Below are positions 43,218 to 52,258 of a stretch of DNA of 52,946 bases, in pieces. The DNA comes from a virus, in IMG/VR virus record IMGVR_UViG_3300042465_001424, positions 1 through 52,946 of that record; one strand, 5' to 3'. The translations under genes were made by a program, and so were the position numbers. Positions within the stretch are counted from its first letter, which is position 1; every line of letters starts with the position of its first letter. Under the pieces are notes generated by a model. It was not told the DNA's origin. It was given only the letters and a program-made list of their open reading frames with translations, and ran no database searches.

Positions 43218-44921
43218 TTATTCCCAAGGCATTTTTTCTTCAGAACTTATTGCCGGTATATGAGGGATAAAACAACCTGACGCTGGTTCCCATTTAAAAT
43301 GGCATTCAGCCCCATTCTCACCTAAGTTTTGAAACTTACATTTAAGAATCTTTACTTTAACAGTTTTGTCTTCATAGTTTCTGTGAACTAATAAACCATG
43401 ATAAGATGCATCGTACCATTCGCCGCCGCCTTTAATATTGTACATTGTAGGCTCTTCAATATTACCTTTTGAATCTTTGTACATTTTAGTAGGGTGAGCT
43501 ACAATCATAACTAGTACGTCATACTTCTTAGCAAAGATTTCTATCTGGCTTAAGTACTCTAATGTATAAACATTGACATCGCCAGAGGCATCTGCAGATC
43601 TTACTTTGTTAAATGGATCAATGACTAAGCATTTAATTCCTTTACGTTTAACTAGCTCAGCTCCTTTACGTAATACAGATTCTAATGTATAACGTTCCAT
43701 GTCAATAAAGAAATAATTATCATTAACATGATCCGCTACTTGATTCCACTTTTCAGTTTTAATATCTTCAACTCCCGGCATGCCTTGCCATGTTTTACGC
43801 ATTAACTTATGAGCATGCAAATATGTTGGATGATTCTCTGGAGAAGCATAAGCAGTTTTCCAACCATACTTCTCATTATAACCAACAACCATTTGATCTA
43901 CAAAATCAGATTTACCACTGCTGGGTATACCAGTAACAGTAATAAACTGGCTAGTATAAGTTGAAAAAATACTATCAAAATTATCCAACCCAACTTGGAA
44001 ACCTGGTTTAAAACCATTTCGCACAAAGTCCGTGACTTCATCTTCAATGTCTCTGAATGTGGTAACGTTTTCAAGCGGTACAGGCTTTGATCTTGATATT
44101 CTTTGTGATAATGCTTCTTTGCCGTATTTAATTAAGTATTCGTTTGCATCTTTACAATCATCAAACGTTGCAATATAACAAGTTTCTGATCCTAGTCTTC
44201 TTACTAATTCAGTCTGCAAAGCTTGACCAGCCGCGTCTGAATCAACTGCAATAATAATCTTTGTTTTGTCTTCAAAATAATCAATACAATTATCTAAGTA
44301 CTCAAGATTGTTTGTGCCTAATGTTGCGCCGTTTGGAACAGATATTGCATTAGTGATTCCTGCTTCATGTAATGCTAACACGTCCATTTCGCCTTCAACA
44401 ATTACACAATATTCAAATCCTACAATGCTGTTAATATTATAGAATACTTTTTCAGCTCCCTTGAATAATTTAAAATGCTTGTGTCCATCTCTGTATTTTA
44501 CATTGATAAGTTGATCGCCAATGAAATAATTGAAATGTATAGCATTTTCAGTCTTACCAGTTTGAGGCATAAATTCAGGCCCCTCTGTAACTTGTAACTC
44601 TGTTAATGTTTGCTCTGATATTCCTCTACTATTAAACCATTCAACAACTTTTGAAGTAGCCGGAAGTAAAAGCGATGTTGGTCTAACATAAACTTTTTCG
44701 CTTGCTCCTTTACGTTGATAGGTATGTAATTGAAAAGTCTTACTACAGTTGTGACAAGTTCCTATACCACGTTCCCAGTCATAAGAAGCACACTTTGCTT
44801 TCTCATTCTTAGGTTTTCTGTCTGGCGAGCATATTGGACAAATGCCTTGAGACTTTCCTTCTTCAAGCTTATGTTGATTGAATTGGTCAATCAAAAAACC
44901 ATTTATCTCTGTTGTTTGCAT
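43218..44921 (-). CDS. Primase-helicase (T7 gp4-like)
   Basis: 567 residues. An N-terminal zinc ribbon (Cys28/Cys31, Cys56/Cys59) is followed by a TOPRIM primase domain with 'IVEGEMD' (Glu176) and 'AVDSDAAG' (Asp227, Asp229). The RecA-like DnaB-family helicase has Walker A 'GIPSSGKS' (331-338) and Walker B 'CLVIDPFN'. It unwinds the fork and lays primers. It is the first gene after promoter copy A (26 nt downstream of the element) and leads the replication and nucleotide operon. No DNA polymerase is encoded in this window. Confidence 0.92.
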   Translation of the reverse strand: MQTTEINGFLIDQFNQHKLEEGKSQGICPICSPDRKPKNEKAKCASYDWERGIGTCHNCSKTFQLHTYQRKGASEKVYVRPTSLLLPATSKVVEWFNSRGISEQTLTELQVTEGPEFMPQTGKTENAIHFNYFIGDQLINVKYRDGHKHFKLFKGAEKVFYNINSIVGFEYCVIVEGEMDVLALHEAGITNAISVPNGATLGTNNLEYLDNCIDYFEDKTKIIIAVDSDAAGQALQTELVRRLGSETCYIATFDDCKDANEYLIKYGKEALSQRISRSKPVPLENVTTFRDIEDEVTDFVRNGFKPGFQVGLDNFDSIFSTYTSQFITVTGIPSSGKSDFVDQMVVGYNEKYGWKTAYASPENHPTYLHAHKLMRKTWQGMPGVEDIKTEKWNQVADHVNDNYFFIDMERYTLESVLRKGAELVKRKGIKCLVIDPFNKVRSADASGDVNVYTLEYLSQIEIFAKKYDVLVMIVAHPTKMYKDSKGNIEEPTMYNIKGGGEWYDASYHGLLVHRNYEDKTVKVKILKCKFQNLGENGAECHFKWEPASGCFIPHIPAISSEEKMPWE

Positions 44922-44946
44922 TTATTTAATTTAATTGTTACATATA

Positions 44947-44979
44947 TATTATCAAATTACAATCGTGTTTAGATTGTAA
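44947..44979 (-). promoter_or_regulatory. Phage promoter-like element, copy A
   Basis: Minus strand reads TTACAATCTAAACACGAT, then 7 nt, then TGATAATA, with the end 26 nt before the primase-helicase start. Copies B and C have the same two blocks and the same 7-nt gap. The blocks do not match the Bacteroidota consensus (TTG / TAnnTTTG), which suggests recognition by a phage sigma factor. Confidence 0.7.
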
Positions 44980-51214: not shown

Positions 51215-51688
51215 TTATATAGGTCTTGTGATTATACTTTCGTTTGAGTTTCTTACATTTACTTTTTCTGCTTCATAATAATTCCAGTATGCTTCAACGC
51301 TATCACCAGGAACTTTGTATTGATCAGGCATACATTGAGGCATTGGTGTTAAATCAACTTTAGTTACATTTTTAGGAGACTTGCTTAGTACTCCACCACA
51401 CTTTATAATTGTTAAATGTGTTTTATTATAACGTCTGGTATATTCTTCACCAAGCGCTATCATATGATCATACAACCATTTGTAATTAGAGGTAGACTCT
51501 CGTGCCCATATTGCTGACGGATGATTCTTGTGAGTAACTTTATAAGGAACATCAGCAGATTCGCCATCAGATATTACATGCGCAGTACACAATAATTGTG
51601 CAGATTCTAGGATCATTTTTACTACATGCTTGTTATACATATACTTAGCCGCTTTTTCAGGGTCCGTAGATAAATAAAATATATTCAT
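51215..51688 (-). CDS. Conserved phage protein, possible DNA-repair glycosylase-like
   Basis: 157 residues. 'DPEKAAKYMYNKHVVKMILESAQLL', 'KNHPSAIWARESTSNYKWL' and 'EYTRRY' form a very conserved phage pattern that I recall being annotated in some genomes as pyrimidine-dimer glycosylase-like. That label is tentative and I cannot confirm catalytic residues. It starts 2 nt after the small ORF at 51691. Confidence 0.55.
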   Translation of the reverse strand: MNIFYLSTDPEKAAKYMYNKHVVKMILESAQLLCTAHVISDGESADVPYKVTHKNHPSAIWARESTSNYKWLYDHMIALGEEYTRRYNKTHLTIIKCGGVLSKSPKNVTKVDLTPMPQCMPDQYKVPGDSVEAYWNYYEAEKVNVRNSNESIITRPI

Positions 51689-51690
51689 AA

Positions 51691-51834
51691 TTAAAATTTA
51701 GTTATTAATAATTCTTTTGTTTTAAATTGAGGAAATAAAGTTTTATATTTTTTTATTGCTTCAACTTTAGTATAATAGTAATATCTCATTATATACTTTT
51801 CTGATATATAATCATACGGTTGTATTGTTATCAT
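51691..51834 (-). CDS. Small basic, Tyr-rich protein
   Basis: 47 residues with many Tyr and Lys (YISEKYIMRYYYYTKVEAIKKY, LFPQFKTKE). The start at 51834 lies 26 nt after promoter copy C and the stop is 2 nt before the next gene. Downstream spacing and promoter position support a real gene. No function. Confidence 0.5.
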   Translation of the reverse strand: MITIQPYDYISEKYIMRYYYYTKVEAIKKYKTLFPQFKTKELLITKF

Positions 51835-51859
51835 GATTAAATTGTTTTTGTTACATTAA

Positions 51860-51892
51860 TATTATCAATCTTTGATCGTGTTTAGACTGTAA
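51860..51892 (-). promoter_or_regulatory. Phage promoter-like element, copy C
   Basis: Minus strand reads TTACAGTCTAAACACGAT, 7 nt, TGATAATA, ending 26 nt before the small gene at 51834, the same distance as copy A. It follows the tRNA-like element with an 11-nt gap. Confidence 0.7.
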
Positions 51893-51903
51893 ATTTTAAT
51901 TAG

Positions 51904-51973
51904 GAACTAAAAGGGGAATCGAACCCCAAAACCCGTCGGTCGTAACATGCCTAAAAGGCCCAGTACTTAGTTC
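51904..51973 (-). tRNA. tRNA-like element, atypical; isotype not assignable
   Basis: On the minus strand the ends pair perfectly over seven bases (51967-51973 with 51904-51910), and a canonical T-arm GGGG-TTCGATT-CCCC lies at 51913-51927. Between them is a short GCC/GGC hairpin (loop TTTTA) and a GACC/GGTT hairpin, but no normal D-arm and no convincing five-pair anticodon stem; no 3' CCA is encoded. It is about 70 nt. It may be a degenerate tRNA or a tRNA mimic. Confidence 0.45.
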
Positions 51974-52033
51974 TTTAACACAACCTCTACACTACCTTAC
52001 CGCGCGGATCAGCAGGACAATTGTGTATAGCAA
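51974..52033. other. Intergenic region with no recognised gene
   Basis: 60 nt between the KTSC gene and the tRNA-like element. It holds a short CCGCGCGG palindrome, the most GC-rich spot around, but no frame with a plausible start and no clear hairpin with a T-tract. Confidence 0.4.
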
Positions 52034-52258
52034 CTATGCTTTCTTAAATCTGTAGAAAGCCAAAACATATTTGTTAAGGAATTTACCTTTAGACGAGGCA
52101 TCTCTCAATCCATTCATTACGTGAGCAGGTACGCTTAGGTATTCGTACTCTCTACCGTTCTTGAATAGAACAAATAATCGTTCAACATTTGGATAGTAAG
52201 CGACTTCTGAGATTGCGCTAGAATTTACTTCTAAAGTTTCAATTAAATTTACATTCAT
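52034..52258 (-). CDS. KTSC-domain protein
   Basis: 74 residues from ATG 52258. A longer frame opens upstream (to 52351), but the first 31 residues are low-complexity Lys/Asn and outside the domain. The core 'NSSAISEVAYYPNVERLFVLFKNGREYEYLSVP' and 'SSKGKFLNKYVL' matches the small KTSC fold, found in phages and linked to RNA or ribosome-associated proteins. The exact role is unknown. Confidence 0.75.
   Translation of the reverse strand: MNVNLIETLEVNSSAISEVAYYPNVERLFVLFKNGREYEYLSVPAHVMNGLRDASSKGKFLNKYVLAFYRFKKA

Follow-up and report, generated by a model that had tools for sequence, protein, structure and literature searches.

A phage tRNA-like domain with a conserved GACG mini-arm at the place of the anticodon arm, probably handled by tRNA-maturing enzymes

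What is an element that keeps the acceptor and the T-arm of a transfer RNA (tRNA) and carries no anticodon arm? The question is raised by positions 51904–51973 of IMG/VR virus record IMGVR_UViG_3300042465_001424, the whole analyzed stretch of which (52,946 nucleotides, nt) is called the window below. A first-pass annotation, made from the letters of the window alone, had reported a tRNA-like element at this site, with neither a normal D-arm nor a normal anticodon stem. The element turned out to be real and to lie on the minus strand, where a covariance model built exclusively from a second family of relatives finds it as the sole match in the window, and we have little doubt about its structure or the conservation of that structure: it is a 70-nt tRNA-like domain (TLD; read 51973→51904 after examination of both strands), with a paired mini-arm where an anticodon arm would stand. 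The TLD is probably a real RNA that is handled by the tRNA-maturing enzymes of the cell and is unable to read the genetic code. Its parts are as follows.

51904–51973, minus strand: TLD, running from the acceptor's G(–1) to the C with which this G pairs on the 3′ side (the covariance model matches at 51905–51972)
51967–51973, minus strand: acceptor helix, 5′ strand GAACTAA, pairing 7/7 with 51904–51910 (motif scanner)
51904–51910, minus strand: acceptor helix, 3′ strand TTAGTTC (motif scanner)
51964–51966 with 51942–51944, minus strand: D-like stem, 5′ strand GTA and partner TAC (minimum-energy fold), which closes the insert and covaries in relatives
51945–51963, minus strand: D-like loop with GG and the inserted hairpin GCCT-TTT-AGGC (51949–51959; fold), hypervariable in relatives
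51930–51941, minus strand: mini-arm GACC-GACG-GGTT with the conserved GACG loop, at the anticodon-arm place (fold, and stem versions in relatives)
51913–51927, minus strand: T-arm GGGG-TTCGATT-CCCC, a 15-nt match to the Rfam T-arm of transfer-messenger RNA (tmRNA); the T-loop is TTCGANT in 63 of 65 TLDs
51900–51903, minus strand: 3′ trailer CTAA, of the same kind as behind the ARAGORN tRNAs of the phage group

On the minus strand the element reads G-AACTAAG-TACTGGGCCTTTTAGGCATGTTAC-GACCGACGGGTT-TT-GGGGTTCGATTCCCC-TTTTAGTTC, followed by CTAA. The 7-base-pair (bp) acceptor that had been called perfect pairs throughout; the T-arm, likewise called perfect, is so over 4 bp, the fifth T-stem position being a T-T mismatch (4/5 with the scanner). 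Both short hairpins that had been described in the middle (51959–51949 and 51941–51930) occur in the minimum-energy fold, which contains the GCCT/AGGC hairpin, the GACC-GACG-GGTT hairpin and the 3-bp GTA/TAC stem, and they can be assigned further, the former as a hypervariable insert in the D-like loop and the latter as a conserved mini-arm. A normal D-arm is missing in the sense that no cloverleaf was found, but a reduced one can be read, with a 3-bp stem and GG in its loop. The lack of an encoded CCA was borne out, the trailer being CTAA. Compared with an ordinary tRNA, the window element has the 7-bp acceptor and the T-arm with a TTCRANN loop, and a 4-bp hairpin with a GACG loop instead of an anticodon arm with a 5-bp stem and a 7-nt loop.

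Neither ARAGORN, which called 0 tRNAs in the window, nor Rfam, which had no match at the gathering threshold, revealed a standard cloverleaf that had been missed by eye. A relaxed Rfam scan of 371 bases matched 15 nt of the tmRNA T-arm (model positions 348–362, 9.4 bits), beside two small nucleolar RNA matches at chance level (14.8 and 14.1 bits). The tmRNA match in the window is confined to these positions and does not span the whole tRNA-like domain; the same 15 positions score 13.3 bits in two related loci (L058 and L069). A plus-strand reading was rejected, since the T-loop is canonical solely on the minus strand.

Relatives were collected with several scans. An exact scan with the T-arm and the 3′ acceptor strand, which was not anchored on the mini-arm, found 12 viral contigs with a variable middle; all 12 carry CGACGGGTT before the T-arm and all 12 have C[AT]AA behind the T-arm/acceptor pattern. 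Scanning with CCGACGGGT and the T-arm yielded 69 stretches, including a second family (AACTAGGTCAGG or GGTATGG, insert, CTACCGACGGGTATGAGGTTCGANTCCTCACTAGTTAC) as well as a smaller share made up of ordinary tRNAs and unrelated matches. When the scan was anchored solely on the family-2 T-arm and acceptor, 45 stretches were obtained, and the GACG hairpin is kept in 42 of these, 31 with CCGACGGGT and 11, some of them near-identical to one another, with altered stems around the same loop (TACT/AGTA, TAAC/GTTA, TACT/GGTA). With a general parser, 65 distinct TLDs, counting that of the window, were obtained; they fall into two sequence families and stand at 86 locus occurrences, some of which overlap on one contig. 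The GACG hairpin is present in 63 of the 65, partly by selection, so that the two scans not anchored on the mini-arm matter. The versions of the mini-arm stem seen are TACC/GGTA, TACT/AGTA, AACC/GGTT, GACC/GGTT and TAAC/GTTA. A DNA search with a 161-nt region gave no match.

The structure is conserved by compensatory change. Once reduced to distinct skeletons, the 63 TLDs with a GACG hairpin leave 25, in which 98.9% of cells are paired and 52 cells are changed on both sides (the acceptor and insert of L004 are misparsed in the 65-TLD and skeleton counts). For these 25 skeletons the covariation score is 0.406 against a shuffled mean of 0.188 and was reached by 0/500 shuffles, and when partners were slid by 1 or 2 positions the pairing of the mini-arm and T-stem was 54–65%. 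For the mini-arm alone, the pair-type count was reached by 10/500 shuffles. Within the acceptor, T-A becomes C-G at the fourth pair in L091, and A-T/G-C alternate at the sixth pair between families. Among 13 family-2 sequences, 98.7% of cells pair and 5 pairs show double changes (0/500 shuffles; slid registers 32–51%), the information in this test coming from the D-like stem and the mini-arm, as the T-stem is invariant there. The description made from the single sequence, of a tRNA-like element with neither a normal D-arm nor a normal anticodon stem, thus holds: across 65 distinct sequences the unusual middle is maintained through compensatory changes and does not decay.

The D-like stem (GTA/TAC, GTC/GGC, ATA/TAT, GTG/CAC) pairs in 82% of cells across 36 clusters, with the L004 insert corrected for this test; the shuffled mean is 71%, and 82% was reached by 0/2000 shuffles. 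The D-like arms of these clusters measure 10–75 nt including the stem, and the first GG lies at offset 4 or 5 in 34/36. Since the shortest arm (L183, GTAGGGTTAC) consists of 3 bp and a GGGT loop (GTA-GGGT-TAC), the rest of the longer arms was read as a D-loop insertion. In most of family 2 the acceptor has 6 pairs, within an 11-nt 3′ strand.

An independent recovery was obtained with model R2, a covariance model made from the 13 family-2 sequences and no family-1 sequences. In the 52,946-base window, R2 returned the element as the single match up to E 10 (39.1 bits, E 1.1e-7), and 16 of 17 family-1 loci score 33.7–46.9 bits. The highest-scoring ARAGORN tRNA of the control loci has 28.1 bits, and an unclear case, read as a degenerate tRNA-Leu (L089), 28.6 bits. 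A further model, R1, contains the window, so its match at the element is not independent; its alignment has some of the family-2 acceptor and mini-arm pairs in the wrong register, and its tRNA and motif controls reach 30.3 bits. The nearest relatives of the window's large terminase are those of Flavobacterium, Cellulophaga, Tenacibaculum and Maribacter phages (87 records, the highest identity, 63.8%, being to a podovirus record from the environment). R1 was run over the full length of six named phage records among these 87, and no such element was found; four had no match, and three weak matches in the other two were rejected as ordinary tRNAs by ARAGORN (Thr, Leu, Ala). Among these six, no cultured phage carrying the element was found.

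The 3′ trailer links the TLDs to the tRNAs of the same phages. At 123 loci of TLD- or leader-bearing phages, 30/30 distinct ARAGORN tRNAs, counted where the T-loop is recognizable and including two typed tRNA-???, have the trailer N73-C[A/T]A, and none has CCA; at 62 other loci, C[AT]A follows 30 of 143 tRNAs and CCA 45. The trailer N73-C[A/T]A is found in 64/65 TLDs, although the C after N73 was part of the TLD search expression, except for the 12 contigs of the exact scan, and this bears on the count in the same sense as the reservations below. The trailer common to TLDs and phage tRNAs suggests a shared 3′-end maturation.

Several further observations weigh against this picture or narrow it. 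The pair-type count over the whole skeleton was reached by 97/500 shuffles and is not significant. The acceptor varies little, with only 3 further pair types; among the 13 family-2 sequences it varies at one pair and on one side only, and the T-stem never varies, so the double changes in these two helices lie mostly between families. The insert is weakly hairpin-like (mean z –0.42; 7/36 clusters below –1). Single-sequence folding on the correct strand has a z of –1.39, with 16/200 shuffles equally good, and with the leader included the z is –0.31, no better than shuffles, while the wrong (plus) strand gives –2.30; as folding energy is not decisive, the proof of the element is comparative and comes from the covariance model of family-2 sequences only. 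The GACG hairpin is missing in 3 family-2 stretches (L128, L132, L138), and L017 scores 25.4 bits with R2, within the tRNA range. Eight further records with a close relative of the neighboring gene have no R2 match, three of them being fragments below 27 kb, and the L019 and L021 records have no R1 match, so the element is not universal. Finally, the discriminator is C in the window and A in family 2, which together with the family-2 form of the acceptor makes one fixed amino-acid identity unlikely.

The surroundings of the TLD contain the following features.

52034–52258, minus strand: KTSC-domain gene of 74 amino acids (Pfam PF13619, 55.5 bits, E 4.5e-15), ending just upstream of the leader
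51978–52026, minus strand: 5′ leader module (fold), in which ACACAA (52026–52021) closes with TTGTGT (51983–51978)
51825–51892, minus strand: repeat that follows closely on the TLD and shares 72% identity with the one at 44912–44979; a putative promoter, called "promoter copy C" in the first-pass annotation
51215–51688: gene with a Pyr_excise domain, downstream of the TLD

The placement of the element just before promoter copy C was right as to the repeat, which adjoins downstream at a distance of 11 nt, whereas the promoter label remains putative. A search for a terminator-like site near the TLD found none. In family 1 the TLD ends a larger, modular leader. This typically starts with TATACAC and follows either the KTSC gene, as is often the case, or a different gene. 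The expression for the 5′ leader helix matched 5/17 loci, each with 6/6 pairs (ACACAA/TTGTGT in the window; ACACGG/CCGTGT in L004, L060, L062 and L098), and the GGAAACAG leader hairpin is found in 8/17 loci with four pairs each (CGTG/CACG, CGCA/TGCG, CGCG/CGCG and CGTG/TACG). When viral contigs were scanned for the leader module GGGAAACAG... without reference to the TLD, 7 stretches were found, with a TLD downstream in 7/7. The remaining leader helices, including domain C, are suggestive only, as the domain-C counts are off by one base and the others come from best-pair picking. One hairpin of the family-1 leaders also recurs within the L092 TLD, in its insert. In L019, about 470 nt upstream of a Pyr_excise-type gene, TTGCTATACACGG is directly followed by sequence resembling the promoter-like repeat, an arrangement that looks like a site without leader and TLD.

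The KTSC peptide expression (up to 900 nt upstream) was found in 19 family-1 locus entries, several of which share contigs, and PF13619 in 4/11 records tested. It was not found upstream in L009/L068, L058, L059 (198 nt only), L061, L062, L064 and L091, nor upstream of family-2 copies, some of which have little upstream sequence, and the KTSC protein was rejected as an obligate partner on these grounds. The family-2 module GACGAGTAGCTTAATTAGG occurs in 58 stretches; among the 46 that were new, the parser found an AACTA-type TLD in 8, and many of the others lead, by reading, to different tRNA-like units. Family-2 phages (L070:4160-4405, L142–L187) have mosaic leaders, in which constant blocks (GACGAGTAGCTTAATTAGG ... 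ACATAAGTGAATNGCTAGC) surround swapped hairpins; one block is found again in the TLD insert of L083.

How such an element might be made can be proposed from what it has kept. It retains the features that tRNA-maturing enzymes read, i.e., the acceptor/T-arm stack, the T-loop, the D-loop GG and the tRNA-type 3′ trailer, and has lost the parts required for decoding, a 4-bp GACG mini-hairpin standing for the anticodon arm. The trailer and the kept elbow lead us to infer that RNase P cleaves the RNA, that its 3′ end is trimmed in the manner of a tRNA and that CCA is added. The TLD would be transcribed at the end of a KTSC–leader transcript, RNase P would cut before the acceptor, and the 3′ end would be trimmed and provided with CCA as for the real tRNAs of the phage group; release of the small stable RNA would simultaneously set the 3′ end of the upstream RNA and so punctuate the transcript, as mascRNA does for MALAT1. 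We lean towards this view, in which the TLD is a functional RNA whose maturation by tRNA enzymes would release a stable RNA lacking an anticodon and also generate the 3′ end of the RNA before it.

The TLD resembles the canonical tRNA (RF00005) in its acceptor/T-arm stack, the TTCGANN T-loop, the GG in the D-like loop and the trailer of the phage-group tRNAs, and differs from it by the lack of an anticodon arm, the 3-bp D-stem with a hypervariable insert, the 6 acceptor pairs in most of family 2 and its being recognized by neither ARAGORN nor Rfam. The tRNA-like side of tmRNA has no anticodon or true D-stem, a reduced D domain with GG, and a helix at the anticodon-arm place. The TLD is like this domain (RF00023) in having no anticodon, a D domain that is reduced and has its GG shortly behind the acceptor, and a helix at the anticodon-arm place, and unlike it in its extra GACG mini-arm, the absence of G3-U70, and the absence of an mRNA part as judged by eye, no systematic search having been made. 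RNase P has a role in the release of mascRNA. mascRNA and menRNA of MALAT1/NEAT1 are described as the tRNA-like ends of longer noncoding transcripts with no decoding role (PMC9777231). The proposed release of the TLD by tRNA-maturing enzymes follows the same idea; these RNAs are mammalian, and the likeness is one of architecture and proposed processing only. The GOLLD and ROOL RNAs occur in phages and near tRNAs. These ornate RNAs are described as large structured bacterial RNAs (PMC12286853). The TLD leaders are shorter and modular, and no GOLLD or ROOL match was obtained with Rfam in the window at gathering or, with the limit set at E 1, in 13 related loci. Bacterial Y RNAs (YrlA) carry a tRNA-like module in a noncoding RNA, as the TLD would; no Rfam match to such a family was seen in the window or the 13 related loci. 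A match of the element to a known Rfam family was rejected from the scans of the window and of related loci. No description of such an element was found in the accessible parts of open-licence PubMed Central papers, to which the literature search was limited.

Other explanations have to be weighed against that of a matured, anticodon-less RNA. That the TLD acts in cis, as a 3′-end stabilizer or switch near the next gene that stays within the transcript, is improbable, though not more so than any other rival: plant-virus tRNA-like 3′ ends are cis elements of this sort, and the TLD follows the KTSC gene on the same strand, 11 nt before the putative promoter repeat and with no terminator-like site found, but the KTSC-like peptide is not found upstream of family-2 copies (with the reservation on their upstream sequence made above) and the trailer matches that of the tRNAs in these phages. 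Only marginally less credible is a tRNA-like domain of the tmRNA kind, binding SmpB or EF-Tu in ribosome rescue and perhaps competing with host tmRNA. The order acceptor-xTATGG-helix-T-arm of the TLD resembles that of tmRNA-like units with a GG acceptor, 19/19 distinct examples of which have G3-U70 and A73, and near or adjacent units at two loci (L070, L104) match positions 1–374 of the Rfam tmRNA model at 64.7 bits within only 82 nt. The window acceptor, however, has C3-G70 rather than G3-U70, with discriminator C73, so that the G3-U70/A73 combination of these sister units is absent from it; a paired GACG mini-arm was not seen in the 14 Ala-type units inspected, and no tag reading frame was identified in the leader by eye, no systematic search having been made. 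Less likely again is a decoy that occupies a host enzyme or toxin attacking the tRNA elbow, acceptor or CCA end and that, having no anticodon, is blind to anticodon nucleases. Exactly the acceptor/T half is kept, and the fast variation of the insert (36 clusters) would fit a pressure to change, but the conservation of the GACG loop is left unexplained.

A decaying tRNA pseudogene or a missed ordinary tRNA is quite unlikely. Other odd tRNAs do occur in related phage loci (ARAGORN tRNA-??? in L048, L067 and L068), but the mini-arm, the D-like stem, the T-stem and, to a lesser extent, the acceptor all show compensatory changes, which argue against decay, as does the presence of this mini-arm in both families; a standard tRNA that the software had overlooked was rejected because ARAGORN and Rfam show no cloverleaf. 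Phage attP sites often contain a T-arm and the 3′ acceptor strand, and an attP remnant, i.e., an integration site consisting of the 3′ half of a host tRNA gene, was considered for the TLD as well. The covariation and the presence of the 5′ acceptor strand speak against it, and the 24-nt T-arm and acceptor and a gapped pattern had 0 matches in a collection of bacterial genome contigs (exact matching only); with no host tRNA gene sharing the 3′ half in these two scans, this explanation was rejected as highly improbable.

Related phage loci hold further tRNA-like units. Two tandem TLDs with different inserts and different mini-arm stems lie in one phage (L088; record G005:C1:49153-49425). L101:12-74 and L123:5068-5132, both on the minus strand, have an ordinary-looking D-arm, a GACG hairpin and no visible anticodon arm; their model scores are low and ARAGORN called no tRNA there. 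At L068:6890-6995 (also in L009) a tRNA-like unit, GTCGAGA...TCTCGAC with a T-arm, stands directly after the TLD; its middle hairpins are odd, and ARAGORN does not call it. Short tmRNA-like units that have no mRNA part are present at L070:4406-4487 and L104:2461-2542 (82 nt, tmRNA 64.7 bits, model 1–374), at L107:2157-2258 (34.3 bits, below gathering) and in L135, L142, L146, L149, L153, L160, L161, L164, L166 and L169–L172. In the 19 distinct GG-acceptor units of the related loci, pair 4:69 varies (A-T in 9, C-G in 6, G-C in 3, G-T in 1); these units are alanine-type and anticodon-less, with hypervariable arms.

A broader, more speculative idea is that these phages deploy a repertoire of anticodon-stripped tRNAs, with a GACG mini-arm class and an alanine-type, tmRNA-like G3-U70 class, which could be matured, perhaps charged, and act on the tRNA-handling or ribosome-rescue machinery of the host rather than in decoding, with fast-changing arms at the D or P2 position. 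The TLD family escapes both ARAGORN and Rfam. If the proposed reading is true, a conserved natural tRNA-like RNA without an anticodon arm would be a minimal substrate that separates tRNA handling from decoding, it would become testable whether tRNA-maturing enzymes form the 3′ ends of phage noncoding RNAs in bacteria, and the benefit that a phage may draw from a non-translating tRNA would become directly testable.
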